A stretch of DNA of 64,000 nt from Wenyingzhuangia fucanilytica (GTDB lineage: Bacteria; Bacteroidota; Bacteroidia; Flavobacteriales; Flavobacteriaceae). Below the pieces are notes generated by a model, which saw nothing but the letters and a program-made list of their open reading frames with translations, was not told the origin of the DNA and did no database searches. Below, in pieces: positions 12,837 through 49,384 of the stretch (the first letter of the stretch is position 1; the number at the start of each line of letters is the position of its first letter). The DNA is taken from NCBI RefSeq assembly GCF_001697185.1, contig NZ_CP014224.1, forward strand, positions 1,860,001-1,924,000, given 5' to 3'. The translations under genes and the position numbers were made by a program.

Positions 12837-13699
12837 ACTGCAAAATAAAGTACTATAATGGCTAAAAAAGACATTCCTAACCCTATATAATTTTGTTTAC
12901 TCAATTTCTCTTGATAAAGAAATAGCCCCAAAAGTACTGAGACCAAAACAACTAATAAATTATTTACTGAAAAAATTAACGAAGTTTCATAATTGGGTTG
13001 AGACAATGCTTTTAGGAAAAAATAAATAGAAAAATAATTTGGCAAGCCTAAAACCAAACCACCGATACAACTCTTTATAGATATTTTAAGATTCCCCGTT
13101 ATTTTTTTTAACAAAAGTACCGTTACCCCTATCAATCCACAAAACAAAAAAAGTGAAGTAGAAAACAAATCTAAATCACCATGAGAAACATAGTATGCTT
13201 GCATATGATTAATGATTGCATCAGCCAAACCACTTCCTATAAAAATTAAAAAAGGAAAGTACCATAAACGCTTATCAAACTTTTCTATTCCTTTCTTTTT
13301 AGAGGTAAACCAAACCCCTAACAAAGCCAAACCAATCCCAAATAACTTAAGAAACCCCGCATTTTCACTATACAATACTATTCCAATGGCAATTGGAATA
13401 ACCACACTCATTTTATTAGCAACAGTCATTACAGACAGCCCTCCTTTTTGGGCTGTTATGGCCATTAAATTAAATATGATGATAAATAATGTAGAAATTG
13501 ACAACGCCCCCCAAACCCAAGATTGAGTGATTAGATTTGAAACCGAAAAAACCGATTTACTATGCAAACATCCTATTGAAAAAGCTATAAAATAACTCAC
13601 CACAATAGCTTGTAAATTATCTAGCTGATATCTTTGAAATTCTTTAATCGTTAAAAAAACAGCGGTAGTAAAAAGAATACTTAACAGTAAATAAATCAT
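12833..13699 (-). CDS. EamA/DMT family exporter
   Basis: A 288-residue inner-membrane protein with about ten hydrophobic helices and an internal two-fold repeat, the layout of drug/metabolite transporters (EamA). The second repeat ends with IFSVNNLLVVLVSVLLGLFLYQEKLSKQNYIG, the typical EamA close. The substrate cannot be told. It overlaps ribD upstream and yigZ downstream by 4 bp each, so export of a riboflavin-pathway compound is conceivable but unproven. Confidence 0.85.
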   Translation of the reverse strand: MIYLLLSILFTTAVFLTIKEFQRYQLDNLQAIVVSYFIAFSIGCLHSKSVFSVSNLITQSWVWGALSISTLFIIIFNLMAITAQKGGLSVMTVANKMSVVIPIAIGIVLYSENAGFLKLFGIGLALLGVWFTSKKKGIEKFDKRLWYFPFLIFIGSGLADAIINHMQAYYVSHGDLDLFSTSLFLFCGLIGVTVLLLKKITGNLKISIKSCIGGLVLGLPNYFSIYFFLKALSQPNYETSLIFSVNNLLVVLVSVLLGLFLYQEKLSKQNYIGLGMSFLAIIVLYFAV

Positions 13700-32344: not shown

Positions 32345-32379
32345 CGCTTTAAGTAAAATTTGAACAAACTTCATTGATA

Positions 32380-35300
32380 ATGATATTATTCTTTCAAAAA
32401 AATACGACTGTTTTTGCAGTACAAACTTCAGCTCAATCTCCTGAAAACATTCAAAAACTAGAATGGTTATTTGGAAATGCAAAACAAATAAATAGTGACA
32501 ATCTTGAAGGTTTCTTTATAGGACCTCGTAGAGAAATGATTACTCCATGGAGTACCAATGCTGTAGAAATTACTCAAAACATGAGTATTACAGGTATTGA
32601 AAGAATTGAAGAATTCACAGTGGCGGCATCTAAAGATGCTACAATTGATCCGATGTTACAAAAAATGTACGAAGGATTAGACCAAGAAACTTACACTATA
32701 AACGTAGCGCCACAACCTATTTTAGAAATTGATGACATCAAAGCTTTTGATGCTCAAGAAGGATTGTCTTTAAGTGATGATGAAATTGCTTACTTAGAAG
32801 ACATGTCTAAAAGAATTGGACGTAAATTAACAGATTCTGAAGTATTTGGTTTTTCACAAATCAACTCAGAACACTGTAGACACAAAATATTTAACGGAAC
32901 ATTTGTAATTGATGGTGAAGAAAAAGAAACTTCATTATTTAAAATGATTCGTAAAACTTCTAACGAAAACCCTAACGGAATTGTATCTGCTTACAAAGAC
33001 AACGTTGCTTTTGTAAAAGGTCCTAAAGCCGTACAATTTGCTCCTAAAACAGCAGATAAACCTGATTTTTACGAAACCAAAGAGTACCAATCTGTTATTT
33101 CTTTAAAAGCAGAAACACACAACTTCCCTACTACTGTAGAGCCTTTTAACGGTGCTGCAACAGGGGCAGGTGGAGAAATTAGAGACCGTTTGGCTGGTGG
33201 TAAAGGTTCTTTACCTTTAGCTGGAACTGCGGTTTATATGACTTCTTATTCTAGATTAGAAGAAAACAGACCTTGGGAAAACTTAGAAGAAAGAAAATGG
33301 TTATACCAAACACCTATGGATATCTTAATCAAAGCGTCTAACGGTGCTTCTGATTTTGGAAACAAATTTGGTCAGCCTTTAATTTCTGGTTCTTTATTAA
33401 CGTTTGAACACGAAGAATTAAACCAAAACTTATCTGATGCAGATTTAAGAACTTTAGGTTTTGATAAAGTAATTATGCAAGCTGGTGGGGTTGGATATGG
33501 TAAAGCAGAACAAGCTTTAAAAGACGAACCTAAAGGAGGAGATAAAATTGTAATTCTTGGTGGAGATAACTACCGTATTGGTATGGGAGGTGCTGCAGTA
33601 TCTTCAGCTGATACTGGTGCTATGGATTCTGGAATTGAATTAAACGCGGTACAGCGTTCTAACCCAGAAATGCAAAAACGTGCTGCCAATGCCATTCGTG
33701 GTATGGTAGAAAGTGATATCAACCCAATTGTTTCTATTCACGATCATGGTGCAGGTGGACATATGAACTGTTTGTCTGAATTGGTTGAAGAAACTGGAGG
33801 ATTGATTGACACAGATAAATTACCTGTAGGAGACCCTACGCTATCTGCTAAAGAATTAATTGGTAACGAATCTCAAGAAAGAATGGGATTGGTTATCAAC
33901 CAAAAAGATATAGAATATTTAGAGCGTGTGGCTGCTCGTGAAAGATCTCCAATGCATACTGTTGGTGATGTAACCAACGACAACCGTTTTACTTTTAAAT
34001 CTGCCACTACAGGAGCTGCTCCTATGGATTTAGATTTAAATGACATGTTTGGATCGTCTCCAAAAACATTTATGCACGACAAAACAACTCCTCGTAAATA
34101 CGAAGAAGTAGTTTATGACAATAAAGACGTACAACAAAACTTAAAAACAGTTTTACAATTAGAAGCTGTAGCTTGTAAAGACTGGTTAACAAATAAAGTA
34201 GACCGTTGTGTAGGTGGTAAAGTTGCCAAACAACAATGTGCAGGTCCTTTACAATTGCCTTTAAATGATGTGGCTGTAATGGCTTTAGATTACAATGGTA
34301 AAGAAGGAATTGCAACTTCTATTGGTCACGCTCCTGTTGCTGCCTTAATTGATGAAGCTGCGGGTTCTCGTAACGCAATTGCTGAATGTTTAACCAACCT
34401 AGTTTGGGCTCCATTAGAGGAACAAATCACTTCTGTTTCTTTATCTGCTAACTGGATGTGGCCTTGTAAAAACGAAGGAGAAGATGCTCGTTTGTACAAC
34501 GCTGTAAAAGCCGTTTCTGATTTTGCTATCGATTTAGGAATCAACATTCCAACAGGAAAAGATTCTTTATCTATGAAGCAAAAATATCCTAACAAAGATG
34601 TAATTGCTCCAGGTACTGTAATTATTTCTGCAGTAGGTCACTGTAACGATCTTAAAAAAGTAGTAGAACCTGTATTCTCTAAAAAAGAAGGAAACGCTAT
34701 TTTCTATGTAGATTTTTCTTCTGATGCATTTAAATTAGGAGGATCTTCTTTTGCACAAGCCTTAAACAAAATTGGAACTCAAGCTCCAGATATTAAAGAT
34801 GCTGCCAAGTTTAAAACAGCCTTTAACACCATTCAATCTTTAATCGAAAAAGGATTGATTACTGCTGGTCACGATATTTCTGCGGGTGGATTGATTACTG
34901 CTTTGTTAGAAATGTGTTTTGCTGATGTAAACTTAGGGGCTAATATTAACATTTCTGCTTTAAACGAAGCTGATACTTCTAAAGTATTGTTTGCTGAAAA
35001 TGCAGGAGTGGTTATTCAAACCCTAAATCCATCAGAAGTAGAGGCTATTTTAGCTGAAGCTGGATTAAAATTTGCCAACATTGGTACTACTGTAGAAACA
35101 GAAGTAGTAACTTTAGTAAACGGAAATACTACAGAAGTATTTAACGTAGCTGAATTAAGAGATGTTTGGTACAAAACTTCTTACTTATTAGACAAACAAC
35201 AATCTGGAGAAGCTAAGGCTACTGAAAGATTTGACAATTATAAAAACCAAGCTTTAGACTTTACTTTCCCTGCTCATTTTACAGGAAAGTTACCTAAGAT

Positions 35301-36057
35301 TGCTGCAGGTAAAAAACCAGTGGCAGCTGTATTACGTGAAAAAGGATCTAACTCTGAACGTGAAATGGCTAACGCTTTATACTTAGCTGGTTTTGAAGTA
35401 AAAGATGTTCACATGACCGATTTAATCTCTGGTCGTGAAAACTTAGAAGATGTAAACTTTTTAGCTGCCGTTGGTGGATTCTCTAACTCTGATGTGTTAG
35501 GTTCTGCTAAAGGATGGGCTGGAGCATTTTTATACAATCCAAAAGCAAAAGCTGCTTTAGACAACTTCTACGCTCGTAAAGACACTTTATCTTTAGGAAT
35601 TTGTAACGGTTGTCAGTTGTTAATCGAATTAGGATTGATTAACCCAGAGCACGCAGAAAAGCCTGCAATGGAACACAACGATTCTCATAAGCACGAATCT
35701 GGATTTACCTCTGTAACCATTCAAGAAAACAACTCTGTAATGTTAAGCACTTTAACCAATGCTACTTTAGGAGTTTGGATTTCTCATGGAGAAGGAAAAT
35801 TCAACTTACCATATTCAGAAGACCAATACAACTTGGTAGCTAAATATGGTTACGAAGGATATCCTGCCAACCCTAACGGATCTAGCTACAACACTGCTAT
35901 GATGAGTTCTGAAGATGGACGTCACTTGGTAATGATGCCACATATTGAGCGTTCTATTTTCCAATGGAACTGGGCTAACTACCCTGCTGATAGAAACGAT
36001 GAAGTTTCTCCATGGTTAGAAGCTTTTGTAAACGCTAAAGAATGGTTGGCGAAGTAA
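32380..36057 (+). CDS. purL: Phosphoribosylformylglycinamidine synthase
   Basis: A 1225-residue single-chain FGAM synthase, step four of purine synthesis, using ATP and glutamine. The linker and first AIRS-like half contain FSQINSEHCRHKIFNG, KAETHNFPTTVEPFNGAATGAGGEIRD and VSIHDHGAGGHMNCLSELVEE; the glutamine amidotransferase domain at the C-terminus has LGICNGCQLLIELG and SHGEGKFNLPY. The ATG at 32380 was chosen over a TTG 6 bp earlier. The codon use is more regular than in neighbours, in line with high expression. No other pur gene is adjacent. Confidence 0.97.
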   Translation: MILFFQKNTTVFAVQTSAQSPENIQKLEWLFGNAKQINSDNLEGFFIGPRREMITPWSTNAVEITQNMSITGIERIEEFTVAASKDATIDPMLQKMYEGLDQETYTINVAPQPILEIDDIKAFDAQEGLSLSDDEIAYLEDMSKRIGRKLTDSEVFGFSQINSEHCRHKIFNGTFVIDGEEKETSLFKMIRKTSNENPNGIVSAYKDNVAFVKGPKAVQFAPKTADKPDFYETKEYQSVISLKAETHNFPTTVEPFNGAATGAGGEIRDRLAGGKGSLPLAGTAVYMTSYSRLEENRPWENLEERKWLYQTPMDILIKASNGASDFGNKFGQPLISGSLLTFEHEELNQNLSDADLRTLGFDKVIMQAGGVGYGKAEQALKDEPKGGDKIVILGGDNYRIGMGGAAVSSADTGAMDSGIELNAVQRSNPEMQKRAANAIRGMVESDINPIVSIHDHGAGGHMNCLSELVEETGGLIDTDKLPVGDPTLSAKELIGNESQERMGLVINQKDIEYLERVAARERSPMHTVGDVTNDNRFTFKSATTGAAPMDLDLNDMFGSSPKTFMHDKTTPRKYEEVVYDNKDVQQNLKTVLQLEAVACKDWLTNKVDRCVGGKVAKQQCAGPLQLPLNDVAVMALDYNGKEGIATSIGHAPVAALIDEAAGSRNAIAECLTNLVWAPLEEQITSVSLSANWMWPCKNEGEDARLYNAVKAVSDFAIDLGINIPTGKDSLSMKQKYPNKDVIAPGTVIISAVGHCNDLKKVVEPVFSKKEGNAIFYVDFSSDAFKLGGSSFAQALNKIGTQAPDIKDAAKFKTAFNTIQSLIEKGLITAGHDISAGGLITALLEMCFADVNLGANINISALNEADTSKVLFAENAGVVIQTLNPSEVEAILAEAGLKFANIGTTVETEVVTLVNGNTTEVFNVAELRDVWYKTSYLLDKQQSGEAKATERFDNYKNQALDFTFPAHFTGKLPKIAAGKKPVAAVLREKGSNSEREMANALYLAGFEVKDVHMTDLISGRENLEDVNFLAAVGGFSNSDVLGSAKGWAGAFLYNPKAKAALDNFYARKDTLSLGICNGCQLLIELGLINPEHAEKPAMEHNDSHKHESGFTSVTIQENNSVMLSTLTNATLGVWISHGEGKFNLPYSEDQYNLVAKYGYEGYPANPNGSSYNTAMMSSEDGRHLVMMPHIERSIFQWNWANYPADRNDEVSPWLEAFVNAKEWLAK

Positions 36058-36116
36058 TGATAGTACTGAGTAATGAGAAGTGAGTAGTGAGAGGTTAGCA
36101 ACAAAATCCTCTCGTC

Positions 36117-36137
36117 ATTCTAAACTCGTTTCATAAT
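36117..36137. repeat. REP-like hairpin, copy 1 (degenerate)
   Basis: ATTCTAAA-CTCGT-TTCATAAT is a weaker form of the hairpin at 36313-36333 and is preceded by the same CCTCTCGTC flank. Confidence 0.55.
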
Positions 36138-36151
36138 TACATAAAACAAAT

Positions 36152-36186
36152 AAAAACCCCACTAATATTCTAGTGGGATTTTTTTA
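36152..36186 (+). terminator. Intrinsic terminator after purL
   Basis: CCCACTA-ATATTC-TAGTGGG with A and T flanks. It is 95 bp past the stop codon, after the first REP-like copy. Confidence 0.75.
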
Positions 36187-36239
36187 TTCCTAAATATTTA
36201 TAGTGGGTTGTTAGGAGAGAGAATTGAGTAGAGAGTATT

Positions 36240-36295
36240 GAGATGCGAGATGTGAGATGTGAGATGTGAGATGTGAGATGTGAGATGTGAGATAT
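36240..36295. repeat. 7-bp tandem repeat, eight copies
   Basis: GAGATGC, six GAGATGT and GAGATAT in tandem (56 bp). The pure copies make it prone to slippage. It ends at the flank of REP-like copy 2. Confidence 0.9.
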
Positions 36296-36312
36296 TAACA
36301 AAACCTCTCGTC

Positions 36313-36333
36313 ATTCTGAACTCGTTTCAGAAT
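36313..36333. repeat. REP-like hairpin, copy 2
   Basis: ATTCTGAA-CTCGT-TTCAGAAT, a perfect 8-bp stem with a 5-base loop, in the wider context CTCGTCATTCTGAACTCG. Related words recur at 36117, 36608 and 53104. Confidence 0.75.
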
Positions 36334-36391
36334 CTCATAAAACTATTAAGCTGTCTATTCAAGTAATCGGAAAATAACGCCAACAAAAAAG

Positions 36392-36522
36392 CAACGGTAC
36401 TTTTTGTAAACTGAAACGTTTCAGTTCGTAAAGAGCAACGTTCCAGTTTGGAAAGAGAAACGTTCCTCTTAAACAAAAGCACCGTACCATTTTAAAATTG
36501 CAACGTTTCTCTTTTTTAATAC
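36392..36522. repeat. Degenerate array of about six 22-bp units
   Basis: Units begin at 36392, 36414, 36436, 36458, 36480 and 36501, all 22 bp except the fifth (21 bp). The best-conserved form is AACGTTCC near the left end and AAAGAG at the right end; unit 3 reads CAACGTTCCAGTTTGGAAAG plus AG. A 16-bp perfect palindrome ACTGAAACGTTTCAGT spans 36410-36425. No spacer or leader like a CRISPR is present. Confidence 0.75.
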
Positions 36523-36607
36523 CTGTTTTTTTCAAAAAAAGCAACTACAAAACCATTAGTCAAACCTAGTTTGGCAATATTGGTGATAAGCTTTAAACAG
36601 TTCCGTT

Positions 36608-36628
36608 ATTCTAAACTTGTTTCAGAAT
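36608..36628. repeat. REP-like hairpin, copy 3
   Basis: ATTCTAAA-CTTGT-TTCAGAAT, one mismatch in the stem, 86 bp upstream of the DUF2200 gene start region. Confidence 0.6.
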
Positions 36629-36713
36629 CCCATTAATATTCTAGTCGTATATTTTACCTTGAAACCTATAGTGGTTTTTATAACTTTAGGTTTTAGTGAA
36701 AAATAGATATCAT

Positions 36714-37079
36714 ATGAAAGCTACAGCCGAACATCATGAACGTATAGCAAAATTAACCTTTGCCGAAGTTTACCCACACTATATTACCAAAGTGGAAAAA
36801 AAAGGACGAACAAAAGCAGAACTCCACCAAGTGATTCATTGGTTAACAGGTTATAATGAGGCCAAACTTAAAGAATTCATTAACGAAAAAGTAACCTTTG
36901 CTACTTTCTTTAAACACGCTACCCTAAACCCCAATGCAGAACTCATTAAAGGAGTGATTTGTGGATATAGAATTGAAGAACTAGACAACACCTTAACCAA
37001 ACAAGTAAGGTATTTAGACAAATTGGTAGATGAGTTGGCCAAGGGGCGTAAAATGGAAAAAATTTTACGCAGCCAATAA
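36714..37079 (+). CDS. DUF2200 family protein
   Basis: A 121-residue cytoplasmic protein of the DUF2200 family, recognisable from MKATAEHHERIAKLTFAEVYPHYITKVEKK, IHWLTGYNEAKLKEFI and [12 protein letters not shown] with the C-terminal [17 protein letters not shown]. Its function is unknown. The ATG at 36714 gives the family's usual start; a GTG 18 bp upstream adds nothing conserved. Its last 125 coding bases plus 5 bp are repeated at 40909-41038, and its last part again at 44675-44717, marking it as the anchor of the accessory region. Confidence 0.88.
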   Translation: MKATAEHHERIAKLTFAEVYPHYITKVEKKGRTKAELHQVIHWLTGYNEAKLKEFINEKVTFATFFKHATLNPNAELIKGVICGYRIEELDNTLTKQVRYLDKLVDELAKGRKMEKILRSQ

Positions 37080-37084
37080 ACCAA
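36955..37084 (+). repeat. DUF2200 3'-end repeat, copy 1 (inside the intact gene)
   Basis: The 130 bp ending just past the DUF2200 stop. Copy 2 differs from it at about three positions by eye. This copy completes the intact gene. Confidence 0.9.
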
Positions 37085-37100
37085 TTTATTTAACAAATAT

Positions 37101-37236
37101 TAAAAACTACAACGTTTTGTGGATAAATAAACATTCCTTTTATCTATAAATAATCCGTAGTTATATAAATATCAATAAACTTCTGTAAACTCAAATGTAA
37201 AATATGGTTGAGTATAGAGAAGTTGGGTGTAATTAT
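37101..37236 (+). repeat. R repeat, copy 1
   Basis: About 136 bp following DUF2200. It shares with copies 2 and 3 the words TGTGGATAAATAAACATTCC, AATCCGTAGTT, ATAAATATCAATA and ACTTCTGTAAACT. It is the most diverged copy and ends at AGTTGGGTGTAATT. It contains TGTGGATAA (37118-37126), the complement of the DnaA box TTATCCACA. Confidence 0.85.
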
Positions 37237-37338
37237 CACTCAAACCAAAAAGTATCCAACATTTGAAAATCCGTATAAAAAATTAAGACTACACTACCCG
37301 ACCTTTGTCTTATAATTTTAATTTAAAAAATAGACAAA

Positions 37339-38289
37339 ATGAATACAAATCAATTTGGTGAAAAAGGTTGGACACCAGACAGAATTAAAAAATTAAATGG
37401 TAAAACATACGTCATAACAGGAACTACAAGTGGAACAGGTTTTGAAGCAACAAAAATTCTACTTTCAAAGGGAGCGAAAGTTGTAATGCTTAATAGAAAT
37501 CTTAAAAAAGCCAAAGGCACTATTGCAATATTAAAACAAGAATTAGGAGAGGCGATTGATATAGTTAACATTCAAATGGACTTATCTAAGCAGTCCTCCG
37601 TAAAAAAAACGGCTGAAGATGTATTAAAAACAGTTCCTCAAATTGATGCACTTATTTGTAATGCAGCAATTGCCCAAGTGCCTAAACAAACGATAACTGT
37701 AGATGGTTGGGAGAGTCAAATGGGAACGAATTACTACGGTAATTGGACATTACAAGCTTTATTGTTTCCTCTTATTGAAAAGTCCAAAGGACGAATTGTA
37801 ACAGTAGGAAGTTTGGGATATGATATGGGCATTAAAACCATTAAATTTGATGACTTGAATTGGGAGAAAGACTACACGCCAAATAATGCTTACAGCCAAA
37901 GTAAACTGGCACAAATAATGTCTATGTACGAATTACAAGATAGATTGAAAGAAGCTGGAAAAACAGATGTTAAAGCCTATGCGTGTCATCCTGGTTCTTC
38001 AAGAACCAACTTAATAAATTCTAGTGGCAGTTTTATGATGAAATTCATCTTTAATTTAATGAAATTGTCGCCATTAACACAATCGGCTGAAAAAGGTGCT
38101 TACCCCGAGGTAATGTGTGCTATAGAACCAAATTTAGACGAAAGCGGTTTTTACGGACCAACAGGAAGAAATAATTGGACTGGTCCAGTGGGAGCTCACA
38201 AAATAAAATCACACGCTAAAGATAAAACAGTAGCAAAACGACTGTGGGAACTTTCAGAAAAAGAAACAGGTATAAATTGGAACATTTAA
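37339..38289 (+). CDS. Short-chain dehydrogenase/reductase
   Basis: A 316-residue NAD(P)-dependent oxidoreductase of the extended SDR type resembling protochlorophyllide-reductase/retinol-dehydrogenase-like members. The cofactor motif TGTTSGTG is at 27-34, NAA at about 108-110 and the catalytic Ser158, Tyr185 and Lys189 (YSQSK) are in place. The substrate is unknown. It begins the four-gene cargo block; its stop overlaps the next start by 1 bp (TAATG). Confidence 0.9.
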   Translation: MNTNQFGEKGWTPDRIKKLNGKTYVITGTTSGTGFEATKILLSKGAKVVMLNRNLKKAKGTIAILKQELGEAIDIVNIQMDLSKQSSVKKTAEDVLKTVPQIDALICNAAIAQVPKQTITVDGWESQMGTNYYGNWTLQALLFPLIEKSKGRIVTVGSLGYDMGIKTIKFDDLNWEKDYTPNNAYSQSKLAQIMSMYELQDRLKEAGKTDVKAYACHPGSSRTNLINSSGSFMMKFIFNLMKLSPLTQSAEKGAYPEVMCAIEPNLDESGFYGPTGRNNWTGPVGAHKIKSHAKDKTVAKRLWELSEKETGINWNI

Positions 38290-39401
38290 TGGCTTTAATT
38301 AAAAAAATAATGCTTGGACTACTATTTATCATCATAATTATTGGTGTCGGAACACTAATCTTTTTAAATACTGAACGGTTTGGAAAACATCCATCAGGAG
38401 AACGTTTATTAAAAATAGAACAATCATCCAACTATAAGAATGGGAGTTTTCAAAACCTGAATGACACACCTATGCTTACAGAAGATGTTAGCTATAGCAA
38501 AGTGATGTATGAATTCCTTTTTTTGGCAAAAGCCAAAGAGCCTTCTGTTAAAATACCTTCGGTTAAAACTAATTTGAAAGCACTTAAAGCAAATGAAAAT
38601 GTGCTGATATGGATGGGACATTCATCTTACTTTATGCAATTGGATGGTAAAAAGATATTGGTTGACCCTGTTTTAAGTGGTAATGCGTCACCACTTTCTT
38701 TTACCACTAAAGCTTATGATGGAACCGATATTTATACAACCGATGACATCCCAGAAATAGATTATTTATTTTTATCACACGACCATTGGGATCATATGGA
38801 TTATAAAACACTGAAAAAGTTGAAACCAAAAATTAAGAATATCATTACAGGCCTTGGTAATGGTGCGCATTTAGAGGCTTGGGGATTTAATCCAGAAGTG
38901 ATTTTAGAAGGTGATTGGTACGATTCTTTTAAATTTGAAAAAGGATTTGAAATACATATAACGCCTGCAAGACATTTTTCAGGAAGAGGATTTAAAAGAG
39001 CAAAAACATTATGGGCATCTTTTGTCTTAAAATCACCAAGTGCTACAATTTATATTGGTGGCGATAGTGGATATGATACGCATTTTAAAGATATTGGAAA
39101 TAAATTCGGGCCTTTTGACTTGGCAATTCTTGAAAATGGCCAATATGATGAAAAATGGAAGTACATTCATATGTTACCAGGCGAACAAATAATAGCCGCA
39201 ACAGATTTAAATACAAAAGCTATTTTACCTGTGCATTCAGGAAAATTTACCTTGGCCAATCACAATTGGGACGAACCATTTGTGAATATTACAGATGAAG
39301 AAAATAGGAAAGACTTTAAAATAATAACGCCAATGATTGGAGAACAAGTAAACTTAAACGATAGTTTACAGCAATTTAAGGATTGGTGGAACCTAAAATA
39401 A
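38289..39401 (+). CDS. MBL-fold metallo-hydrolase, membrane-anchored
   Basis: A 370-residue protein with an N-terminal membrane helix (about 6-26) and a metallo-beta-lactamase fold. The metal site HxHxDH is His164-Asp-His166-Trp-Asp168-His169. Further ligands are likely in PARHFSGR and GGDSGYDTHF. It belongs to the UlaG/NAPE-PLD-like group, which hydrolyses lipids, phosphodiesters or lactones. The start at 38289 is chosen because it gives the anchor and a TAATG coupling to the SDR gene. Confidence 0.88.
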   Translation: MALIKKIMLGLLFIIIIIGVGTLIFLNTERFGKHPSGERLLKIEQSSNYKNGSFQNLNDTPMLTEDVSYSKVMYEFLFLAKAKEPSVKIPSVKTNLKALKANENVLIWMGHSSYFMQLDGKKILVDPVLSGNASPLSFTTKAYDGTDIYTTDDIPEIDYLFLSHDHWDHMDYKTLKKLKPKIKNIITGLGNGAHLEAWGFNPEVILEGDWYDSFKFEKGFEIHITPARHFSGRGFKRAKTLWASFVLKSPSATIYIGGDSGYDTHFKDIGNKFGPFDLAILENGQYDEKWKYIHMLPGEQIIAATDLNTKAILPVHSGKFTLANHNWDEPFVNITDEENRKDFKIITPMIGEQVNLNDSLQQFKDWWNLK

Positions 39402-39406
39402 TAGAA

Positions 39407-40318
39407 ATGAAACATTTTAAAACATTATCATCATATTTAGAATATATGCAGCTTCCTCGTCCAGAGCATCCAATGTTGAGTGTTTATACAGCAAAGGGAG
39501 ATGAATTTTTGCCTTGTCCGAGAGAAAGTTCACCTCCCATTTCAACCGATAGTTATTCTATTAGCTTTAAGAAAATAATAAAAGGAAATATAAATTATGG
39601 TCGAACAAAATACGATTTCACTAATGGTGCTTTAATTTTTATTGCACCTAGACAAGTGGTACAATGGGATAGTAGTATCATTTTTGAACAAAAGGGGTTT
39701 TCGATAAATTTTCACGAAGATTTTCTGAAAGGAACAGCATTAGCTCAACAGATTAAGAAATATAATTTCTTTTCTTATTCAGCTAATGAAGCATTGCACC
39801 TTTCGCCAAAAGAAGAAAAGCAAATAGAATCGATAGTAAATAATATTGAAATAGAATACCAAAACAACCAAGATGAATTCAGTAAGGAAATCATCATTTC
39901 TCAATTAGACACGCTATTGAAATATGCCAATCGTTTTTACGAAAGACAGTTTTTGAATAGGAAAGAGTTATCAAATGACTTGTTGGAACGTTTTAACTTG
40001 CAATTAACTGAATACTTTGAATTAGGACTTGTACAAAAAAAGGGGATTCCAAATATTGAAGAATTAGCAAATATAATGTCCGTTTCGCAACGTTACTTAA
40101 GTGATACACTTAAAAAAGAAACAGGTAAAACAACTACAGAGCATTTACACTTACGCTTAATAGATGAAGCAAAAAATATTTTATTAAAACCAAATAAAAG
40201 TATTTCAGAAGTAGCCTATGAATTGGGATTTGAATATCCACAATATTTTTCCCGATTATTCAAAAAGAAGGAAGGTATCAGTCCAACGGAATACAGAGAA
40301 AAATATAAATTAAATTAA
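39407..40318 (+). CDS. AraC family transcriptional regulator
   Basis: A 303-residue regulator. The N-terminal half is a cupin-like sensing region; the C-terminal 100 residues form the double helix-turn-helix of AraC/XylS: IEELANIMSVSQRYLSDTLKKETG and then ISEVAYELGFEYPQYFSRLFKKKEG. It starts 5 bp after the metallo-hydrolase stop and is followed after 3 bp by a membrane protein, so it probably controls its own operon. The inducer is unknown. Confidence 0.93.
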   Translation: MKHFKTLSSYLEYMQLPRPEHPMLSVYTAKGDEFLPCPRESSPPISTDSYSISFKKIIKGNINYGRTKYDFTNGALIFIAPRQVVQWDSSIIFEQKGFSINFHEDFLKGTALAQQIKKYNFFSYSANEALHLSPKEEKQIESIVNNIEIEYQNNQDEFSKEIIISQLDTLLKYANRFYERQFLNRKELSNDLLERFNLQLTEYFELGLVQKKGIPNIEELANIMSVSQRYLSDTLKKETGKTTTEHLHLRLIDEAKNILLKPNKSISEVAYELGFEYPQYFSRLFKKKEGISPTEYREKYKLN

Positions 40319-40321
40319 ACA

Positions 40322-40837
40322 ATGGAACTATTAAAACTAGCCACAGAATGGGCAAAAGCCGAAGTATTTTCAACACGTTTCTTTATTTTATTCGCGGTTG
40401 GATTTTTAATTACTAGTGTTGGATTTTGGCAAATGGGAAAAACAGATTTGGCAAAAGCCTATATCATTCCTATGTTAGTCGCAGGCGTATTACTTTTAGT
40501 AATTGGTAGCGGTCTTAATTATACCAACGTTCAAAGAATTAAACAATTTAAAAAGGACTTCAACACAGATTCTTCTGCCTTTTATCAATCAGAAATTAAA
40601 CGTTCTGAAAGTACTTTAAAGGAATATACAATTGTATTTAAAGTAATTCCAATATTAATTATTGTAGCCACATTATTAATCCTGCTAGTTAACACACCAA
40701 CTTGGAGAGCAATTAGCATAACAAGTATTGCGATGTTAATTGTCATTTTATTAGTTGACGGAACTGCACATTCTAGAATTGAAAGCTATTACAAAGAATT
40801 AAAATTGGTGGGTATAAAAAATGACATCAAAAAATAA
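40322..40837 (+). CDS. Four-helix membrane protein of unknown function
   Basis: A 171-residue protein with hydrophobic stretches near residues 17-35, 47-66, 99-118 and 122-142. The loop between the second and third pair is rich in charged residues. I do not recognise the family. It is the last gene of the SDR/metallo-hydrolase/AraC block, spaced by 3 bp. Confidence 0.7.
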   Translation: MELLKLATEWAKAEVFSTRFFILFAVGFLITSVGFWQMGKTDLAKAYIIPMLVAGVLLLVIGSGLNYTNVQRIKQFKKDFNTDSSAFYQSEIKRSESTLKEYTIVFKVIPILIIVATLLILLVNTPTWRAISITSIAMLIVILLVDGTAHSRIESYYKELKLVGIKNDIKK

Positions 40838-40908
40838 TTCCTTAAAACAAACTTTAAATAAGTAGCACCATTCAATACAAATCCGTTGAGAAATATTTTA
40901 ATTTTCAA

Positions 40909-41038
40909 TGATTTGTGGATATAGAATTGAAGAACTAGACAACACCTTAACCAAACAAGTAAGGTATTTAGACAAATTGGTAGACGAATTGGCCAAGGGG
41001 CGTAAAATGGAAAAAATATTACGCAGCCAATAAACCAA
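40909..41038 (+). repeat. DUF2200 3'-end repeat, copy 2 (displaced fragment)
   Basis: 130 bp matching the end of the DUF2200 gene including its stop codon, with about three differences. No start or upstream part of the gene is present, so it is a displaced gene end and not a functional gene. It bounds cargo block 1 on the right. Confidence 0.9.
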
Positions 41039-41104
41039 CGCGACAATAGTTTTATTTGCTTAGTTAAATGTTTGTCAATTAATCAACGGTGTTACCAACT
41101 TCTT

Positions 41105-41617
41105 TTATTTTGAATAAGCCCCCGAAGAATATGTAAGTTCATAACTATGCGTGTAGATTTCAAATACAATTCCAAATGGATCTTCAACATAGCACATTTT
41201 AAAAGGCTTGTCATTAGGATAGTATTCTCTTATTGGCATTCTTTGTTTTCCTCCGTAAGACAAAATTTTATCAATAAGTTCTTCAATATTTGGATCTTGT
41301 ACACAAAAATGAAATAGACCAGTATTGAATGGGTTAAATTCAGGTGCTTCTTTCACTCCATTCGGAAAAGAAAATAATTCAATTCCAATTCCGTCTGAAG
41401 TTGCTAAATGAGCAATTTCGAATTCCGTCCAATCATCTCCAAAAACGTCAATACACATTTGACCAATAGCAGTTTCTTTTTCCTTTTTGACTTTTGAAGG
41501 CTCCATAATTATGTACCAACCCATTACTTCTGAATAGAATTTTACTGCCTCTTTTATATTTGGAACTGTTAATCCTATATGTGAAAATGATTTAGGATAA
41601 TTTTTATTAATTGTCAT
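41105..41617 (-). CDS. VOC family protein (glyoxalase/dioxygenase fold)
   Basis: A 170-residue vicinal-oxygen-chelate protein with two beta-alpha-beta modules: FSHIGLTVPNIKEAVKFYSEVMGW and then GLFHFCVQDPNIEELIDKI, ending FKMCYVEDPFGIVFEIYTHSYE. Metal ligands are probably His13 in the first strand and Glu near the end. It may act on an electrophile or resistance substrate. It is divergent from the HxlR regulator, the usual arrangement for a regulated detoxification gene. Confidence 0.85.
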   Translation of the reverse strand: MTINKNYPKSFSHIGLTVPNIKEAVKFYSEVMGWYIIMEPSKVKKEKETAIGQMCIDVFGDDWTEFEIAHLATSDGIGIELFSFPNGVKEAPEFNPFNTGLFHFCVQDPNIEELIDKILSYGGKQRMPIREYYPNDKPFKMCYVEDPFGIVFEIYTHSYELTYSSGAYSK

Positions 41618-41738
41618 AAGTTATATTTTAGACTTCGAAATTACACTATATTTGCTTTACTGGCAATAACTTACTAAAAAGTAGTATAGTTACCAAAACG
41701 AGTAAAATAATGATAATCAACAATCTAAAGTTATAATT

Positions 41739-42050
41739 TTGAATAAAGAAAATAGTTGTCCTTTAAATTACACTATGAATTTAATAGGAACAAAATGGAA
41801 ACCTTTAATTTTATTTCATCTATTAGAAGGCGATTTGCGTTCAGGAATATTGCAAAAGAAAATTCCAGGGATTTCAAATAAAATGTTTACACAAACAGTA
41901 AGAGATTTAGAAAAAGATGGACTTTTATCCAGAAAGGTTTTTCCTGTAGTGCCTCCAAAAGTGGAATACAGTTTAACCAACAGAGGTAAATCACTTGAAG
42001 ATATTTTAAGAAGTTTGGACAAATGGGGATTGAAAGATTCTCAACATTAA
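41739..42050 (+). CDS. HxlR family transcriptional regulator
   Basis: A 103-residue winged-helix regulator with the HxlR start CPLNYTMNLIGTKWKPLILFHL and the recognition region ISNKMFTQTVRDLEKDGLLSRK followed by the wing PPKVEYSLTNRG. The start is a TTG at 41739-41741; the first ATG downstream would delete the conserved cysteine and first helix. It is divergent from the VOC gene (121 bp), which it probably controls. Cysteine 7 could sense electrophiles, as in some HxlR proteins. Confidence 0.87.
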   Translation: MNKENSCPLNYTMNLIGTKWKPLILFHLLEGDLRSGILQKKIPGISNKMFTQTVRDLEKDGLLSRKVFPVVPPKVEYSLTNRGKSLEDILRSLDKWGLKDSQH

Positions 42051-42070
42051 TTTAATTGTCTCGATTTCAA

Positions 42071-42211
42071 ACTTGTTAAGAACTATGAGCTTTTGTGGAT
42101 AAATAAACATTCCTTTTATTTATAATAATCCGTAGTTTTATAAATATCAATAAACTTCTGTAAACTCAAATGTAAAATAAGGTTGGGTTATTCGGAAGTT
42201 GTAGGCAATTT
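42071..42211 (+). repeat. R repeat, copy 2
   Basis: About 141 bp, nearly identical to copy 3. It has TGTGGATAA at 42094-42102 and ends in GTTGTAGGCAATTT (42198-42211), which is the left inverted end of the TIR unit. Confidence 0.88.
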
Positions 42212-42228
42212 GAAAGAACCAAAACCTT

Positions 42229-43665
42229 ATGAATCAAAAAATCTTCATTTCATACTCTTGGACGACACCCGAACACGAAGAATGGGTTCTTAGTCTTGCG
42301 AAAAGACTTATTTCTGATGGAATTGATGTTGTTCTTGATAAATGGGATTTAAAAGAAGGACACGACTTATATGATTTTATGGAATCAATGGTAAAATCAC
42401 CTGAGATTAATAAAGTCTTGATTATTCTAGACAAGAAATACTCTGAAAGAGCGGACTCCAGAAAAGGTGGTGTCGGAACGGAAACTCAAATAATCAGCCC
42501 CAAAATTTATAAAGATGTATCACAGGAAAAGTTCATTCCAATAGTCCGAGAACGCAGTGAAGAAGGCGAAGCATTTATTCCAACTTATTTAGATGGCCGT
42601 GTGTATATTGATTTGTCAAATGATGAACAATTCGAAGATAATTACGAAAGTCTATTAAGGAATATCTATGGTCGTCCTTCATTTAGTAAACCTAAACTAG
42701 GTAAAGCCCCAAGCTACTTGTTTGAAGAAAGCCCACTCAATTTTAAAACGACTCATATTCTAAGGGGATTCGAAAAACAACTTCTGAATAAGCCCGACAG
42801 AGCAAATTCACTAATTCGTGACTTTCTCGAAGACTTCAAAGAGAATTTAAAGGAATTTAGCATTACCTATAATTCGAGGGATCAGATAAAAGTTGGTAAA
42901 CAGATTTGTGAGAATATAAATCAATATACACCGTTAAGAGACGATTTTATTAAGTTTTTCGATATTCTAACCAACTCGAATGTTGATTTTGACATTGACA
43001 TAATAATCCAATTCTTTGAAGAATTACCGTTGTTCTTTTCACCTCTTGACGACCGAAGTAGTTGGGGAACTTTTGAATTTGATAATTTCAAGTTTATCGT
43101 ACACGAACTTCTCATATACTTAATTGCTGTTGGACTTAAAAACAATAACTATCATTTCATTGAAGAAATCCTTTATTCAAGCTACTTCACGAAAGACAAA
43201 CACAATAGCAACAATGAAGCTAAAAGATTTGATGTATTCTACGGTCATACTGACATAATAAAACCTTATTACAATCAAACGCATTCACAGAATTTCTTCA
43301 GTGCAATGGCGGACTTTATTATCAAACGAATTCCAGATTTTTTGACTAAGCGCATTCTAGTACAAGCGGATTTACTCTGTTATCATGTATCTGAATTAAA
43401 TAATCTACGATGGTTTCCGATGACCTATGTATATGACACTTCAGGTCGCTATGAGCTTTTCTATAGACTAGAATCGAAGAGACATTTCGAAAAAGTTAAG
43501 ATTCTTTTTGGAGTTGATACAGTAGAACAACTAAAAGAAAAATTAAATCAACTTGAAGAAAAAGACAAAGGGAATAGTCATAGAGTTGCTTACTCGGGAG
43601 CTTTTGATTCTGTAGCACCTTTATACAGATTAATTGATAAAGATAAATTAGGAACAAAAAGATAA
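42229..43665 (+). CDS. TIR/SEFIR-domain protein, putative defence effector
   Basis: A 478-residue protein. The N-terminal 160 residues are a TIR-like SEFIR domain: KIFISYSWTTPEHEEWVLSL, GIDVVLDKWDLKEGHDLYDF and the Glu52 following, in the position of the TIR catalytic acid if active. The remaining 300 residues are an alpha-rich region without a name, which may sense or oligomerise. Bacterial TIR proteins often deplete NAD during phage infection; that role here is inference. It is bounded by inverted GTTGTAGGC/GCCTACAAC ends and is next to a PD-(D/E)XK gene. Confidence 0.8.
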   Translation: MNQKIFISYSWTTPEHEEWVLSLAKRLISDGIDVVLDKWDLKEGHDLYDFMESMVKSPEINKVLIILDKKYSERADSRKGGVGTETQIISPKIYKDVSQEKFIPIVRERSEEGEAFIPTYLDGRVYIDLSNDEQFEDNYESLLRNIYGRPSFSKPKLGKAPSYLFEESPLNFKTTHILRGFEKQLLNKPDRANSLIRDFLEDFKENLKEFSITYNSRDQIKVGKQICENINQYTPLRDDFIKFFDILTNSNVDFDIDIIIQFFEELPLFFSPLDDRSSWGTFEFDNFKFIVHELLIYLIAVGLKNNNYHFIEEILYSSYFTKDKHNSNNEAKRFDVFYGHTDIIKPYYNQTHSQNFFSAMADFIIKRIPDFLTKRILVQADLLCYHVSELNNLRWFPMTYVYDTSGRYELFYRLESKRHFEKVKILFGVDTVEQLKEKLNQLEEKDKGNSHRVAYSGAFDSVAPLYRLIDKDKLGTKR

Positions 43666-43720
43666 AAACTGCCTACAACAACGGCTATAGTGCATACCTT
43701 GCGGGACACGCACCATAGCC
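43666..43720. repeat. Inverted end and strong hairpin after the TIR gene
   Basis: AAACTGCCTACAAC (43666-43679) mirrors the end of R copy 2 with one mismatch. It is followed by the stem GGCTATAGTGC / GCACCATAGCC (43683-43720; 10 of 11 pairs, loop of 16). The stretch is richer in G+C than its surroundings. Confidence 0.75.
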
Positions 43721-43750
43721 AAACCGTAGCAACCTATTTGAGAACAAAAT

Positions 43751-44671
43751 ATGGAAGAAACCATTTTACCTGTTGAATCTATTCAAGAAAGGGATGTCGA
43801 TTTAATTTTACTAGAAGAATTATCTACCGACAATTCATTTTGTGAATGGTTTGTTAGAGAACTTAACTTACCACATTTGTCTTCTGTAAACGGTGCTTGG
43901 AGAAGTATTTCTGCTTTTGGACTTGGAGAGACTGATATTTTATTTTCCTACAATTCGAATGATCAAAAAATTTTCTTGCTTATTGAAAATAAATTAGACA
44001 CTAAATTTCAACATGAACAATTTAATCGTTACTTAAAACGTGCTGACGAATATTTAGCACAAAAAGAATGCGACAATGTTTTTGTTATATTAATTGCTCC
44101 AAATCTATACTGCGAAAATCAAAGTGAATTTGAAAATTATTTGACCTACGAAATAATTGCTGAAAGACTTAAGTTTATAGGTACAAAAAGAAATCTATTC
44201 AAAAGTAATTTATTAGAAATTGCAACTGAAAAATTAAGACGTGGCTATCAACCCGTAAACTCTGTTCCAGTTCAAAGTTTTTGGCATTTATATTGGCAAT
44301 TTAAAGAAGAAAATTATTCGAGTCTCATAATGAAGAAACCAGATATTGTTCCTCACAACAGTGATTGGCCAATGCTTTTTGATGACAGATTAAAAAATAT
44401 TGTGTTTTATCACAAACTTGGACAAGGAAATACAGATGCAACTTTTAAAGGTTTTTCCGAAGAAGTTGAATTTAAAATAAAAGAATTACTTCCTAAATGG
44501 GCGAAACTAGAAAAACACAGCAAAAGTTTTTCGATTAGAGTTTTTTCAGGAAAAATAGACCGAACACAAGATTTTAACAAGCAATTGGAAAATGTAGATA
44601 ATGGTCTAAAAAACATCAATCGGTTAAGAAATTGGATAATAGAAAATAAAAACATTATAGAGTATATATAG
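43751..44671 (+). CDS. PD-(D/E)XK nuclease superfamily protein (PF14281-like)
   Basis: A 306-residue protein with a restriction-endonuclease-like core at the N-terminus. Asp62 in GETDILF and the Glu79-x-Lys81 of IENKLDTKFQHEQFNRY form the D...ExK site, preceded by an acidic ERDVDLILLEEL helix. The C-terminal half resembles the PF14281 family. Such proteins are frequently seen beside defence genes. The gene starts 85 bp after the TIR stop, with the hairpin between them. Confidence 0.82.
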   Translation: MEETILPVESIQERDVDLILLEELSTDNSFCEWFVRELNLPHLSSVNGAWRSISAFGLGETDILFSYNSNDQKIFLLIENKLDTKFQHEQFNRYLKRADEYLAQKECDNVFVILIAPNLYCENQSEFENYLTYEIIAERLKFIGTKRNLFKSNLLEIATEKLRRGYQPVNSVPVQSFWHLYWQFKEENYSSLIMKKPDIVPHNSDWPMLFDDRLKNIVFYHKLGQGNTDATFKGFSEEVEFKIKELLPKWAKLEKHSKSFSIRVFSGKIDRTQDFNKQLENVDNGLKNINRLRNWIIENKNIIEYI

Positions 44672-44674
44672 AGT

Positions 44675-44717
44675 CAAAGGGCGTAAAATGAAAAAAATAT
44701 TACGCAGCTAACAAACC
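44675..44717 (+). repeat. DUF2200 3'-end repeat, copy 3 (short fragment)
   Basis: 43 bp matching the last bases of DUF2200 around GGGCGTAAAATG and ATTACGCAGC, with several differences. It follows the PD-(D/E)XK gene directly and marks the right end of cargo block 2. Confidence 0.8.
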
Positions 44718-44728
44718 GATGCTATAAC

Positions 44729-44869
44729 ACTTGTTAAGAACTATAAGCTTTTGTGGATAAATAAACATTCCTTTTATTTATAATAATCCGTAGTTTTATA
44801 AATATCAATAGACTTCTGTAAACTAAAATGTAAAATAAGGTTGGGTTGTTTGGAAGTTGTGTATAATTA
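44729..44869 (+). repeat. R repeat, copy 3
   Basis: About 141 bp, nearly identical to copy 2 up to AAGGTTGGGTT. It has TGTGGATAA at 44752-44760 and ends AGTTGTGTATAATT. It lies about 12 bp after the third DUF2200 fragment, like copy 1 after the intact gene. Confidence 0.88.
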
Positions 44870-44906
44870 TAAACAACAAATTACATAGAAAAATAAGTGG
44901 TAAATC

Positions 44907-45332
44907 ATGGAAAGAAAACTTAATATTTTAATTATTTCAATATTAATTATTACCTTTTATAGTTGTGGAAGCGCAAGTCATTATGTTACAAAAAATAGCA
45001 ACCGATGGGCTGAATTCGAATTACGTCCTTCACAAATAAAATACGATGGAAAAATCTTTTACTATAGTAAATTGAATGATGATACTCTGTTCGGTATTTC
45101 ATATGATAACAAAGTAAATGATGATTCTTATTTCTATTATAATAAAATGATGCTTGACTTTAATTGGTATAAAAACTCAGAAGGTAATTGGTCTGGCAAA
45201 AGTGGGGATTATTTTGGTAATGCTAGAAGACTTAAAAATGGACACCTGTACGTAAATCCAGTTAGAAAAGTTGCACTTTATTTTGAACCAAAAGACGGGA
45301 AATTTACAGCCTTTAAAGTAACTTTTAAATAA
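44907..45332 (+). CDS. Small lipoprotein of unknown function
   Basis: A 141-residue protein with an N-terminal hydrophobic segment and lipobox ending at Cys21 (IITFYSC). The mature part is rich in Tyr, Asn, Asp and Lys. I do not recognise it. It is the first gene after R copy 3 and is followed by a small membrane protein, so it is part of the accessory region rather than the core. Confidence 0.65.
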   Translation: MERKLNILIISILIITFYSCGSASHYVTKNSNRWAEFELRPSQIKYDGKIFYYSKLNDDTLFGISYDNKVNDDSYFYYNKMMLDFNWYKNSEGNWSGKSGDYFGNARRLKNGHLYVNPVRKVALYFEPKDGKFTAFKVTFK

Positions 45333-47052: not shown

Positions 47053-48015
47053 CTATAATTTGATAGCAATATGTGCAATAGCATCTCCTTGGTTAACAAT
47101 AGGAGAATGATTCAAACAAATCACATGTCCTGATACTGGAGATTTAATTTTTCTTTCAAAAAAACCATAAGGATCGGTAATTAAACCTATCACCTCTCCT
47201 TTTTTGATAGGCAATCCGTTTTCTACTAAAGACCTGTACATTCCAGAAGCATTGGCTCTAATCCACTTGGATTCGTTAAAAACAACTTGCTTTACCCCAT
47301 CATGCAAAGGAATATGATCTGATGGCATTTTTTTTACCCCTAAAGATTCAAGAACATTTAAAATTCCTGTCACTCCCACATTTGTAATTTTTGGATTGAT
47401 ATTTAAAGCTTTACCTCCCTCATACAACAATACTTTTTTACCACTGGCTACTGCAGAGGCTCTAAAAGATTTTTCTCTTTCTGAGGAGTATTTTACAAAC
47501 TTTGCTCCAAACGTTTTTGCCAAATTAAAAGTTTCCTCATCGTCATCAGAAATTCTTATTTGAGGATAGTTAAATCGCGTATCTCCTCCTGTATGAAAAT
47601 CGATACAATAATCTACATGAACCACAATTTCATTCATAAAAAAATGAGCAAACTTACTTGCTAATGATCCATTCTTAGCTCCCGGAAAACTTCTGTTTAA
47701 ATCCTTTCCATCAGGAAATTCTCTGGTCTTGATTAAAAAACCAAACACATTTACTACAGGAACACAAATAATCATTCCAGCATCTGGAATATTGTATTTA
47801 TTGGCTACAACTTGCCTAACAATTTCTACTCCATTTACCTCATCTCCATGAATTCCGGCACTAATCAAAACACAAGGTCCATCAACCTTAGCCCTGCTAA
47901 TAATAATTGGTACTTCTATTTTGGTTCTGGTGTGCAAACGAGCAATATCAGATTTGATCTGATATGTTTTTCCTGGCTTAATTTTTTCGCCAAGTATGGT
48001 AATATCTTTACGCAT
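47053..48015 (-). CDS. M14-type deacylase (succinylglutamate desuccinylase/aspartoacylase family)
   Basis: A 320-residue zinc hydrolase. The zinc site begins with His56-x-x-Glu59 in SAGIHGDEVNG and continues with His in CIDFHTGGDTRF. The N-terminal 30 residues and the C-terminal beta domain (SPVSGHVICLNHSPIVNQGDAIAHI) fit the AstE/AspA family. It removes acyl groups from amino acids or related compounds. It lies 16 bp after the helicase stop on the same strand. Confidence 0.9.
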   Translation of the reverse strand: MRKDITILGEKIKPGKTYQIKSDIARLHTRTKIEVPIIISRAKVDGPCVLISAGIHGDEVNGVEIVRQVVANKYNIPDAGMIICVPVVNVFGFLIKTREFPDGKDLNRSFPGAKNGSLASKFAHFFMNEIVVHVDYCIDFHTGGDTRFNYPQIRISDDDEETFNLAKTFGAKFVKYSSEREKSFRASAVASGKKVLLYEGGKALNINPKITNVGVTGILNVLESLGVKKMPSDHIPLHDGVKQVVFNESKWIRANASGMYRSLVENGLPIKKGEVIGLITDPYGFFERKIKSPVSGHVICLNHSPIVNQGDAIAHIAIKL

Positions 48016-48031
48016 TTAAATGATACGATAA

Positions 48032-49384
48032 CTATTGTTGTTTCTTCTTTTTCTTTTTTACAGGTTTATCTGTAGAAAGTAAGTCGGCTGTTTTGTTCTC
48101 TAATAAATAATTGGCTAAAATTTTATCTACCAATTCCTCTTTGGTTAAATGATGAAAGACCTCTTTAACCGAAGCTTTTACCTGTTCTGACACAGCTCTA
48201 TTGGGTTTGGTTTTAAATATTTTTTTAGCCCAAAGAATGGTGTTATTTTCCTCTATGCTTATGGCATTAGGTTTGGCATAGGTATGTAAATCAATTTCAT
48301 ACTCCTCTCCTAAAAACTTCATTTTTTCAACCTCATCAGCTTGTAATACTGCTAAAGACATTCCTTTGGCTCCTGCCCTAGCCGTTCTACCACTACGGTG
48401 AATATAAGTTTCCATCGCATCTGGCAAATGATAATGCACTACATAAGAAACATTTTTGATGTCAATTCCTCTTGCAGCAACATCTGTAGCAACCAAAGTA
48501 TTGATATATCCTTCACGAAATTGCTCCATAATACGATCACGGATTCCTTGTGTTAAACTACCGTGAATAGCTCCAGAAGAAATTTTATTAATGGCTAAAT
48601 TTTTGGCCAACTTATTAACCGCGGCTTTGGTTTTACAAAATATAATTCCCTGCTCCCCTTCTTTGCTAGACAAAAAGTGTAATAACACATTTAGTTTTTC
48701 TATAGGTTCTACCACTACATAATGATGGGCAACATCTTTATGCGCTGTATTTACCGTTTCTGACCCAACTTGGGTAACGTGTTTAGACAAATAATTTTGC
48801 ACCAATTGCTTTACAGAACCAGGCAAGGTTGCAGAAAACAAAAGAGTACGTTTTTGTTTAGGCATTGCCTCTACAATTTTATCTAAACCTTCTTTTAAAG
48901 ACAAAACCATTTCATCCGCTTCATCTAACACAAAATACTTTACTTGTTTTAAATCAATTTTACCTCTTTGAATCAAATCTATCAAACGACCTGGAGTAGC
49001 TACCACTACATGAGTAGTTTGTTGTAAAAGTTCTATTTGAGGTTTTACAGAAGTACCTCCACAAACCTCAGCAATAGACAAACCAGAAATATCTGCTCCA
49101 AAATCTGTTAGGTTGGTGTAAATTTGTTTCCCTAATTCTCTAGTAGGTGCTAAAACAACTACTTGAATACTTGGGTTAGATACCTCAACCATTTGTAATA
49201 ATGGCAATCCAAAAGCTGCTGTTTTACCAGTACCTGTATTGGCTAATCCTACAAAATCATCCTTTTGATTTAAAATTACAGGAATGGATTGTTTTTGAAT
49301 TTCAGTGGGTTCTGTTATTCCTAAACCATTTAAGGTATTGGTGATAATAGATGAAATTCCTAAATCTGAAAACAGCTTTGACAT
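48032..49384 (-). CDS. DEAD-box RNA helicase
   Basis: A 450-residue ATP-dependent RNA helicase. Motifs in order: Q motif EPTEIQKQSIP (about 25-35), motif I ANTGTGKT (48-55), PTRELGKQ (70-77), DEAD at 154-157, SAT at 184-186, and HRSGRTARAG in the second RecA-like domain. The basic tail ends in KKKKKKQQ. It probably remodels rRNA or mRNA. It resembles RhlE/CsdA-type proteins, but the exact class was not settled. Confidence 0.95.
   Translation of the reverse strand: MSKLFSDLGISSIITNTLNGLGITEPTEIQKQSIPVILNQKDDFVGLANTGTGKTAAFGLPLLQMVEVSNPSIQVVVLAPTRELGKQIYTNLTDFGADISGLSIAEVCGGTSVKPQIELLQQTTHVVVATPGRLIDLIQRGKIDLKQVKYFVLDEADEMVLSLKEGLDKIVEAMPKQKRTLLFSATLPGSVKQLVQNYLSKHVTQVGSETVNTAHKDVAHHYVVVEPIEKLNVLLHFLSSKEGEQGIIFCKTKAAVNKLAKNLAINKISSGAIHGSLTQGIRDRIMEQFREGYINTLVATDVAARGIDIKNVSYVVHYHLPDAMETYIHRSGRTARAGAKGMSLAVLQADEVEKMKFLGEEYEIDLHTYAKPNAISIEENNTILWAKKIFKTKPNRAVSEQVKASVKEVFHHLTKEELVDKILANYLLENKTADLLSTDKPVKKKKKKQQ

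Follow-up and report, generated by a model that had tools for sequence, protein, structure and literature searches.

Integron-cassette-like ends on a bSEFIR defence gene beside a promoter-like repeat in Wenyingzhuangia fucanilytica, a genome with an atypical integron

The window analyzed here is a stretch of 64,000 nucleotides of Wenyingzhuangia fucanilytica DNA (contig NZ_CP014224.1, positions 1,860,001 to 1,924,000), and window coordinates are used unless stated otherwise. Its own genome (G000) was compared with six other genomes of the genus (G001 to G006). The features of interest lie between two conserved borders, purL on the left and a desuccinylase gene with a DEAD-box helicase gene on the right (Table 1). 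In G006, purL was recognized by eye at the start of contig stretch L239. The purL-desuccinylase interval has a length of approximately 11 kb in both G000 and G003, against 15 kb in G002 and 24 kb in G001; in G006 it exceeds 33 kb and spans two contigs. These are the five genomes in which the locus was found; G004 and G005 gave no desuccinylase gene. Gene content of the interval is largely different between the genomes, and a 2.1-kb module that is 92% identical in G001 and G003 is nevertheless placed differently in the two. The interval is thus an exchange hot spot of the genus, and the serial insertion of unrelated cargo that a preliminary description had read from the window is borne out by this variation in size and content.

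Pfam matches support the assignments of DUF2200, SDR, Lactamase_B_2, AraC HTH, glyoxalase/VOC, HxlR, SEFIR/TIR_2, and PDDEXK_4 within the cargo. A 171-aa membrane protein gave sub-cut-off Pfam matches only, and a 141-aa protein at 44907 gave none. No recombinase match was found with Pfam among the 10 proteins checked, in agreement with the earlier remark that these blocks contain neither integrase nor transposase.

Table 1. Positions of genes, repeats and cassette features in the window.
Feature	Position	Strand	Remarks
purL, conserved left border	32374..36057	+	protein 92-94% identical at the locus in G001, G002, G003
Intact DUF2200 gene	36696..37079	+	PF09966, covering positions 1-111 of 111
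A1, DUF2200 3' end	36955..37084	+	
B1 element	37096..37247	+	no complementary partner downstream
SDR, metallo-hydrolase, AraC, membrane-protein genes	37339..40837	+	cassette ends not found
A2, second copy of the DUF2200 end	40909..41038	+	97.7% to A1; no B behind it
VOC/glyoxalase gene	41105..41617	-	
HxlR regulator gene	41739..42050	+	
B2 element	42071..42222	+	motif 42074-42102; -7-like box TAGTTTTA 42133-42140 (by eye); G|TT border 42198
Predicted bSEFIR cassette, B2 border to G of its attC	42199..43726	+	10/10 complementary ends
bSEFIR phage-defence gene	42229..43665	+	PADLOC bSEFIR, E 5.7e-110; PF08357
Short attC, ~60 nt	43670..43730	+	TGCCTACAAC; arms GGCTAT 43683-43688 and ATAGCC 43715-43720; GTAGC replaces GTTAGC
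PD-(D/E)XK nuclease gene	43751..44671	+	PF14281, E 1e-7
A3, last part of DUF2200 joined to B3	44675..44717	+	43 bp, 90.7% to A2
B3 element	44729..44880	+	best partner 8 nt, inside hydrolase gene
Desuccinylase and DEAD-box helicase, conserved right border	47053..49384	-	desuccinylase 85-90% in 4 genus genomes; names by eye

Both repeats of the DUF2200 gene end that had been noticed earlier are real: the last 130 bp recur as A2 (E 7e-58) and the 43-bp piece as A3. A genome-wide search with the gene found DUF2200 sequence at these three places only. A3 and B3 align as a single 198-bp block, at 84%, to 37040-37236 (the end of A1 together with B1), so that A3 is no independent target copy; it is the left end of a copy of approximately 200 bp of "DUF2200 end plus B". 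The left breakpoints of the copies are unequal, lying 130 and 43 bp from the DUF2200 end (36955 and 37040), and the single crossover point expected of an island entering at a gene's 3' end is therefore not seen. Two smaller observations were made in this region. An intergenic repeat of approximately 50 bp occurs in three diverged copies at 36104-36655, between purL and DUF2200. At 44703-44717 the two changes of A3 relative to A1 create GCTAAC, which is complementary over 6 nt to the start of the PD-(D/E)XK cassette (GT-AGC); this could be chance or an R''.

DUF2200 was found in 24 of 60 relatives searched, the own genome counted, and in none of the six other genus genomes; because of this absence we regard the gene as cargo. 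The same layout exists in G001 with another gene: a NUDIX 3' end (127 bp at 79% to the G003 gene; 71 bp at 86% to its own gene) stands directly before B, 6.7 kb after the intact NUDIX gene. G006 has B after an intact NUDIX gene. "Gene end plus B" is therefore not tied to DUF2200. Among 80 named DUF2200 loci a genuine 3' remnant was present in one (L163), while the other cases were a dispersed repeat (L153), an internal fragment of 24 residues (L178:2889-2960, 2.5 kb past the gene, at a contig end), and a full second copy (L190). As a control, a tail copy was found for 4 of 1149 ORF tails from loci of at least 12 kb, and two of these four were the DUF2200 tails of L153 and L163. At L163:10001-12808, from a Saprospiraceae MAG, an intact DUF2200 gene is followed by a 757-aa gene and then by a DUF2200 3' remnant from another allele. 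A motif scan found a tyrosine recombinase near DUF2200 in one of the 80 loci, L119, from a Chitinophagaceae MAG, where a related 389-aa integrase (12210-13379) lies 1.8 kb after the DUF2200 gene. No paper tying DUF2200 to integration was found.

The preliminary description had taken the DUF2200 gene as an anchor at whose 3' end islands enter by a recombinase acting in trans, restoring the gene. Copies of the 3' end behind an intact gene are what such islands would leave, and L163 offers one similar remnant; but the copies share no left breakpoint, another gene takes the same place in G001, DUF2200 is missing from the rest of the genus, and a search of related genomes for what follows the gene gave that single genuine remnant. 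We consider this explanation very improbable, and a role of DUF2200 as a general integration site was rejected on the same absence and the same count. The repeated ends are real, yet they are not the key to the locus. They are not attachment sites and look like passengers in a variable gene-exchange spot.

A second repeat family, missed in the preliminary description, is present in three copies, here called B1, B2, and B3. Relative to the middle copy B2, B1 is 89% identical over 126 nt and B3 96% over 132 nt. A two-part motif within B gave 21 matches in six of the seven genus genomes and no match when reversed; all 21 were 29 nt long, though the free part was allowed to vary. A search of 60 relatives added only two matches, 29 nt long in G008 and 30 nt in G031. 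A longer form of the motif was found in 3 of 397 family genomes, each a member of the genus. The motif contains TTWTNCACA, a DnaA-box-like sequence. Six of the 21 matches stand before nrdB (gene named by eye), and a common regulator of nrdB and the B elements is possible. The nrdB promoters with the motif at fixed spacing are in L204, L205, L209, L213, L214, and L220. In B2 a TAnnTTTR box, resembling the -7 element of Bacteroidota, lies 59 nt downstream of where the motif starts; by eye, most copies have it at the matching place, with a mismatch in B1. B may be a promoter-bearing element.

Among the 15 matches not before nrdB, genes with defence-profile matches stand behind B in the window (bSEFIR) and in G006 (DUF4297-HerA). 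Other genes behind B were NACHT-, KAP- or PLD-like (by eye), an acetyltransferase, regulators, and unknown genes; with PADLOC the NACHT-like protein gave a weak match only and a 585-aa protein of G001 none. L212 has the motif with no B body behind it, and the B profile excludes this match and the six nrdB matches. On contig C177 of G004, four B elements in the same direction are spaced 2.1 to 2.6 kb apart, and their conserved part ends at GTT, with ATT in one copy. A different repeat, with 15-bp inverted ends (CGTTGTGCATTTGGG), occurs upstream of these elements (L235, B at 7746, 9896, 12450, and 14573), and the B elements of G002 are preceded by tandem TCGAG-type repeats.

Over its length B resembles neither attI nor attC. 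No B match (E≤0.01) was found in genome positions 1755000-1860000, home of the integrase and attI described below, and B and this attI differ by eye. B as the attC of an upstream cassette was rejected, as no consistent left R'' partner was found in 15 B elements; a 20-bp attC-like stretch precedes B only at the two elements of G004 contig C182. B as a hairpin was rejected by folding against shuffles (z = -2.6 for B1, -1.2 for B2, and 0.8 for B3). Insertion at dif by XerCD, a site at which Flavobacterium phages are described in the text excerpted from PMC9719478, is unlikely for this locus: the skew, as sampled, switches between 1.71 and 1.80 Mb and not at 1.897 Mb, and visual inspection pointed the same way.

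At position 42198 the border of B2 reads GTTGTAGGCA, and here the predicted bSEFIR cassette starts. Four bases past the bSEFIR stop, at 43670-43679, TGCCTACAAC is the exact complement of this border (10/10). The bSEFIR gene therefore has complementary ends and an attC, as integron cassettes do, with an R' short of one T. The fold of this attC is mildly better than shuffles (z = -1.85, 11/200). The defence profile matches over the whole protein, in agreement with a bSEFIR anti-phage system, and the cassette was re-found by a scan that ignored B. The PD-(D/E)XK nuclease gene is probably the next cassette. These data support a bSEFIR gene with integron-cassette ends beside a promoter-like repeat.

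Border partners were counted for 18 B elements (set aside were the G001 hot-spot B, with a diverged 3' half, G002 C6, and L212; among the 18, G004 C177a has ATT at its border and was treated as GTT). A perfect 10/10 partner within 2.5 kb downstream was present for 7 of 18 borders, compared to 5 of 304 swapped pairs. Partners of at least 8 nt were present for 8 of 18 borders and 22 of 304 swapped pairs; the eighth case, B3, looks like chance, its partner lying inside a hydrolase gene. Upstream partners reached 8 in one case and at most 7 in the rest. With the scan ignoring B, 7 of 24 integron ORFs and 5 of 113 hot-spot ORFs (one of low complexity) had cassette ends. Among 213 ORFs taken from 20 sample stretches there was a single case, a base run, and the remaining part of the window that was scanned gave 0 of 45. 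In a strict search, six-base L arms before GTT were found beside 3 of 7 perfect partners and 121 of 840 random AAC sites; this search misses the window attC, with its R' lacking a T, and the canonical attC of G006. Canonical attC sites are present in the hot spots of G001 and G006 and a partial one in that of G003.

These counts bear on an explanation that sees in B no more than a regulated promoter accompanying defence and stress genes, with modules swapped by homologous recombination, both between copies of B and between DUF2200 ends, and with no integron reaction at B. The fixed-spacing motif shared with the nrdB promoters (6/21), the -7-like box seen by eye, and the resemblance of B copies within one genome would all be accounted for, whereas the perfectly complementary ends of 7 of 18 elements, which start precisely at the border of B, and the stop of the conserved part of B at GTT, would not. 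We judge this explanation unlikely. Duplication, deletion and strain exchange alone, with the bSEFIR cassette and its border arriving ready-made from another genome and no docking here, appear improbable. The 97.7% identity of A1 and A2 and the 96% of B2 and B3, with A1-B1 and A3-B3 more different from each other, fit duplications of different age, and the differently placed 2.1-kb module of G001 and G003 agrees; but the recurrence of cassettes at B in G000, G002, G003, G004, and G006 is left unexplained.

An integron array occupies 1.763-1.785 Mb of the genome. A 399-aa integrase (G000 1763372-1764571) lies approximately 95 kb before the window; behind it come an attI and then 12 attC sites reaching to 1784738, approximately 75 kb before the window. 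In each of the seven genus genomes the best match to TIGR02249 is a frame of 390-415 aa that scores above the genome's other matches and below the cut-off (190.7 bits in G000, cut-off 265). None of the 12 NCBIfam models listed reaches its cut-off with the G000 integrase, XerA coming closest (212.9 of 220 bits). The integrase lacks the IntI-specific insertion, with 24 residues compared to 66 in IntI4, and with this absence and the low score it does not qualify as an IntI-family integrase. The I2 helix is given as IntI-specific in a passage of PMC4792948, and the title of Messier and Roy 2001, cited there, describes the segment as necessary for activity. A conserved tail ending in GTT, as in an attI, follows the integrase gene in all four genomes looked at, and the first cassette is complementary over 9/10. 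The attC sites have the R''/R' complementarity of such sites to the extent counted below, and the one that was folded forms a hairpin far more stable than its shuffles (z = -4.4, 0 of 200). Five of the 6 steps in G001, and 2 of 4 in G000, had a cassette start complementary to its R'' over at least 8 nt. In the longer G000 array at least 7 nt were complementary in 4 of 10 strict steps, attI included, the misses being mostly across large gaps. The cargo of the G000 array (L228:8373-19901 onward) includes a Fic-like gene and two IS3-like elements, identified by eye. In G001 the same integron locus (L230:9163-19901) contains TA-like genes, two copies of a 266-aa gene, and at least 7 attC sites.

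Mobilization in trans, suggested in the preliminary description, is plausible with this integrase, and the DUF2200 end as the entry site is the part that falls. We hypothesize that B is a promoter-bearing docking site for cassettes within a recombination hot spot, and that the DUF2200 ends either came along when B was copied or remained after a deletion (probability approximately 0.6). Integron-type recombination would be one loader of the purL-desuccinylase hot spot. The integrase of the genome's own unusual integron would act in trans, and the G|TT border on the 3' side of B elements would receive the cassettes; B2 would hold the bSEFIR defence cassette. The promoter-like block lies upstream of the border, and B would therefore probably drive the docked gene, comparable to Pc and attI in ordinary integrons. 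A3 would have been copied together with B, and A2 would be a truncated copy left by exchange or duplication and then deletion. We favor docking at B because of the perfect ends and attC arms at B2, the partners at 7 of 18 borders, the scan ignoring B, the attC sites in the hot spots, the integrase, attI and attC array in the same genome, and the alignment of A3 and B3 with A1 and B1 as one block. Against it count the 11 of 18 borders, B1 and B3 included, with no 10/10 partner, the failure to find cassette ends in the SDR operon or the VOC/HxlR block, the variable left edge of B and its dissimilarity to the attI, the lack of a match to the 190-nt attC model in the window, the mild fold advantage and short R' of the window attC, the frequency of 8-nt partners among swapped pairs, and the sub-cut-off score of the integrase. 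A wider proposal, which we offer as tentative and rather doubtful, is that the genus has an integron branch whose integrase lacks the IntI-specific segment, and that dispersed, promoter-bearing B docks, which differ from its own attI, draw single defence cassettes out of the array and switch them on under control shared with nrdB.

According to PMC9024848, only In0 had been reported in Bacteroidetes before IntegronFinder 2.0, which then detected a single complete integron there, that of Salinibacter ruber. The same program detected no integron in a Tenacibaculum genome (PMC10013915), and a review lists Bacteroidota among the integron-bearing phyla (excerpt of PMC8618304). No Flavobacteriaceae integron was noticed among the top-ranked open-licence papers. 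If the docking reading is true, Flavobacteriaceae would have integrons that could escape profile-based searches, given an integrase that scores under the integron cut-off applied here. The system also offers a test of integron function with an integrase lacking the segment that the title of Messier and Roy 2001 describes as necessary for activity. Stored defence cassettes would further gain a second route of expression, by docking beside a dispersed promoter and not by moving to the first place of the array.

Islands at sites of the tRNA or icd type restore the 3' end of the gene they enter. The window resembles them in its intact gene and displaced 3' end copies, and differs in that the crossover point is not fixed and the blocks contain no integrase. 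The bSEFIR system is like known ones in its whole-protein profile match and differs in its integron-cassette ends. Integrons are described as defence stores in a passage of PMC12409362. With the sedentary chromosomal integron of the Vibrio cholerae type, the genome shares an integrase gene, an attI, an attC-delimited cassette array, complementary ends, and defence genes among the cassettes, here elsewhere in the genus hot spots. In contrast to that type, the integrase has the short segment and sub-cut-off score given above and reads towards the cassettes, and the attC are long, with a core of approximately 190 nt. In V. cholerae the cassette mRNA starts 65 bp upstream of attI, according to an excerpt of PMC3948777. 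Insertion of cassettes into the genome outside the integron occurs at attG sites (Loot et al. 2024, via PMC12901181). As at attG, single cassettes are present outside the array beside a putative acceptor unlike attI and attC, and B, with a perfect partner at 7 of 18 borders, may receive cassettes in this way. B may differ from attG sites in that it is a conserved, repeated element of approximately 150 nt with a promoter-like part.
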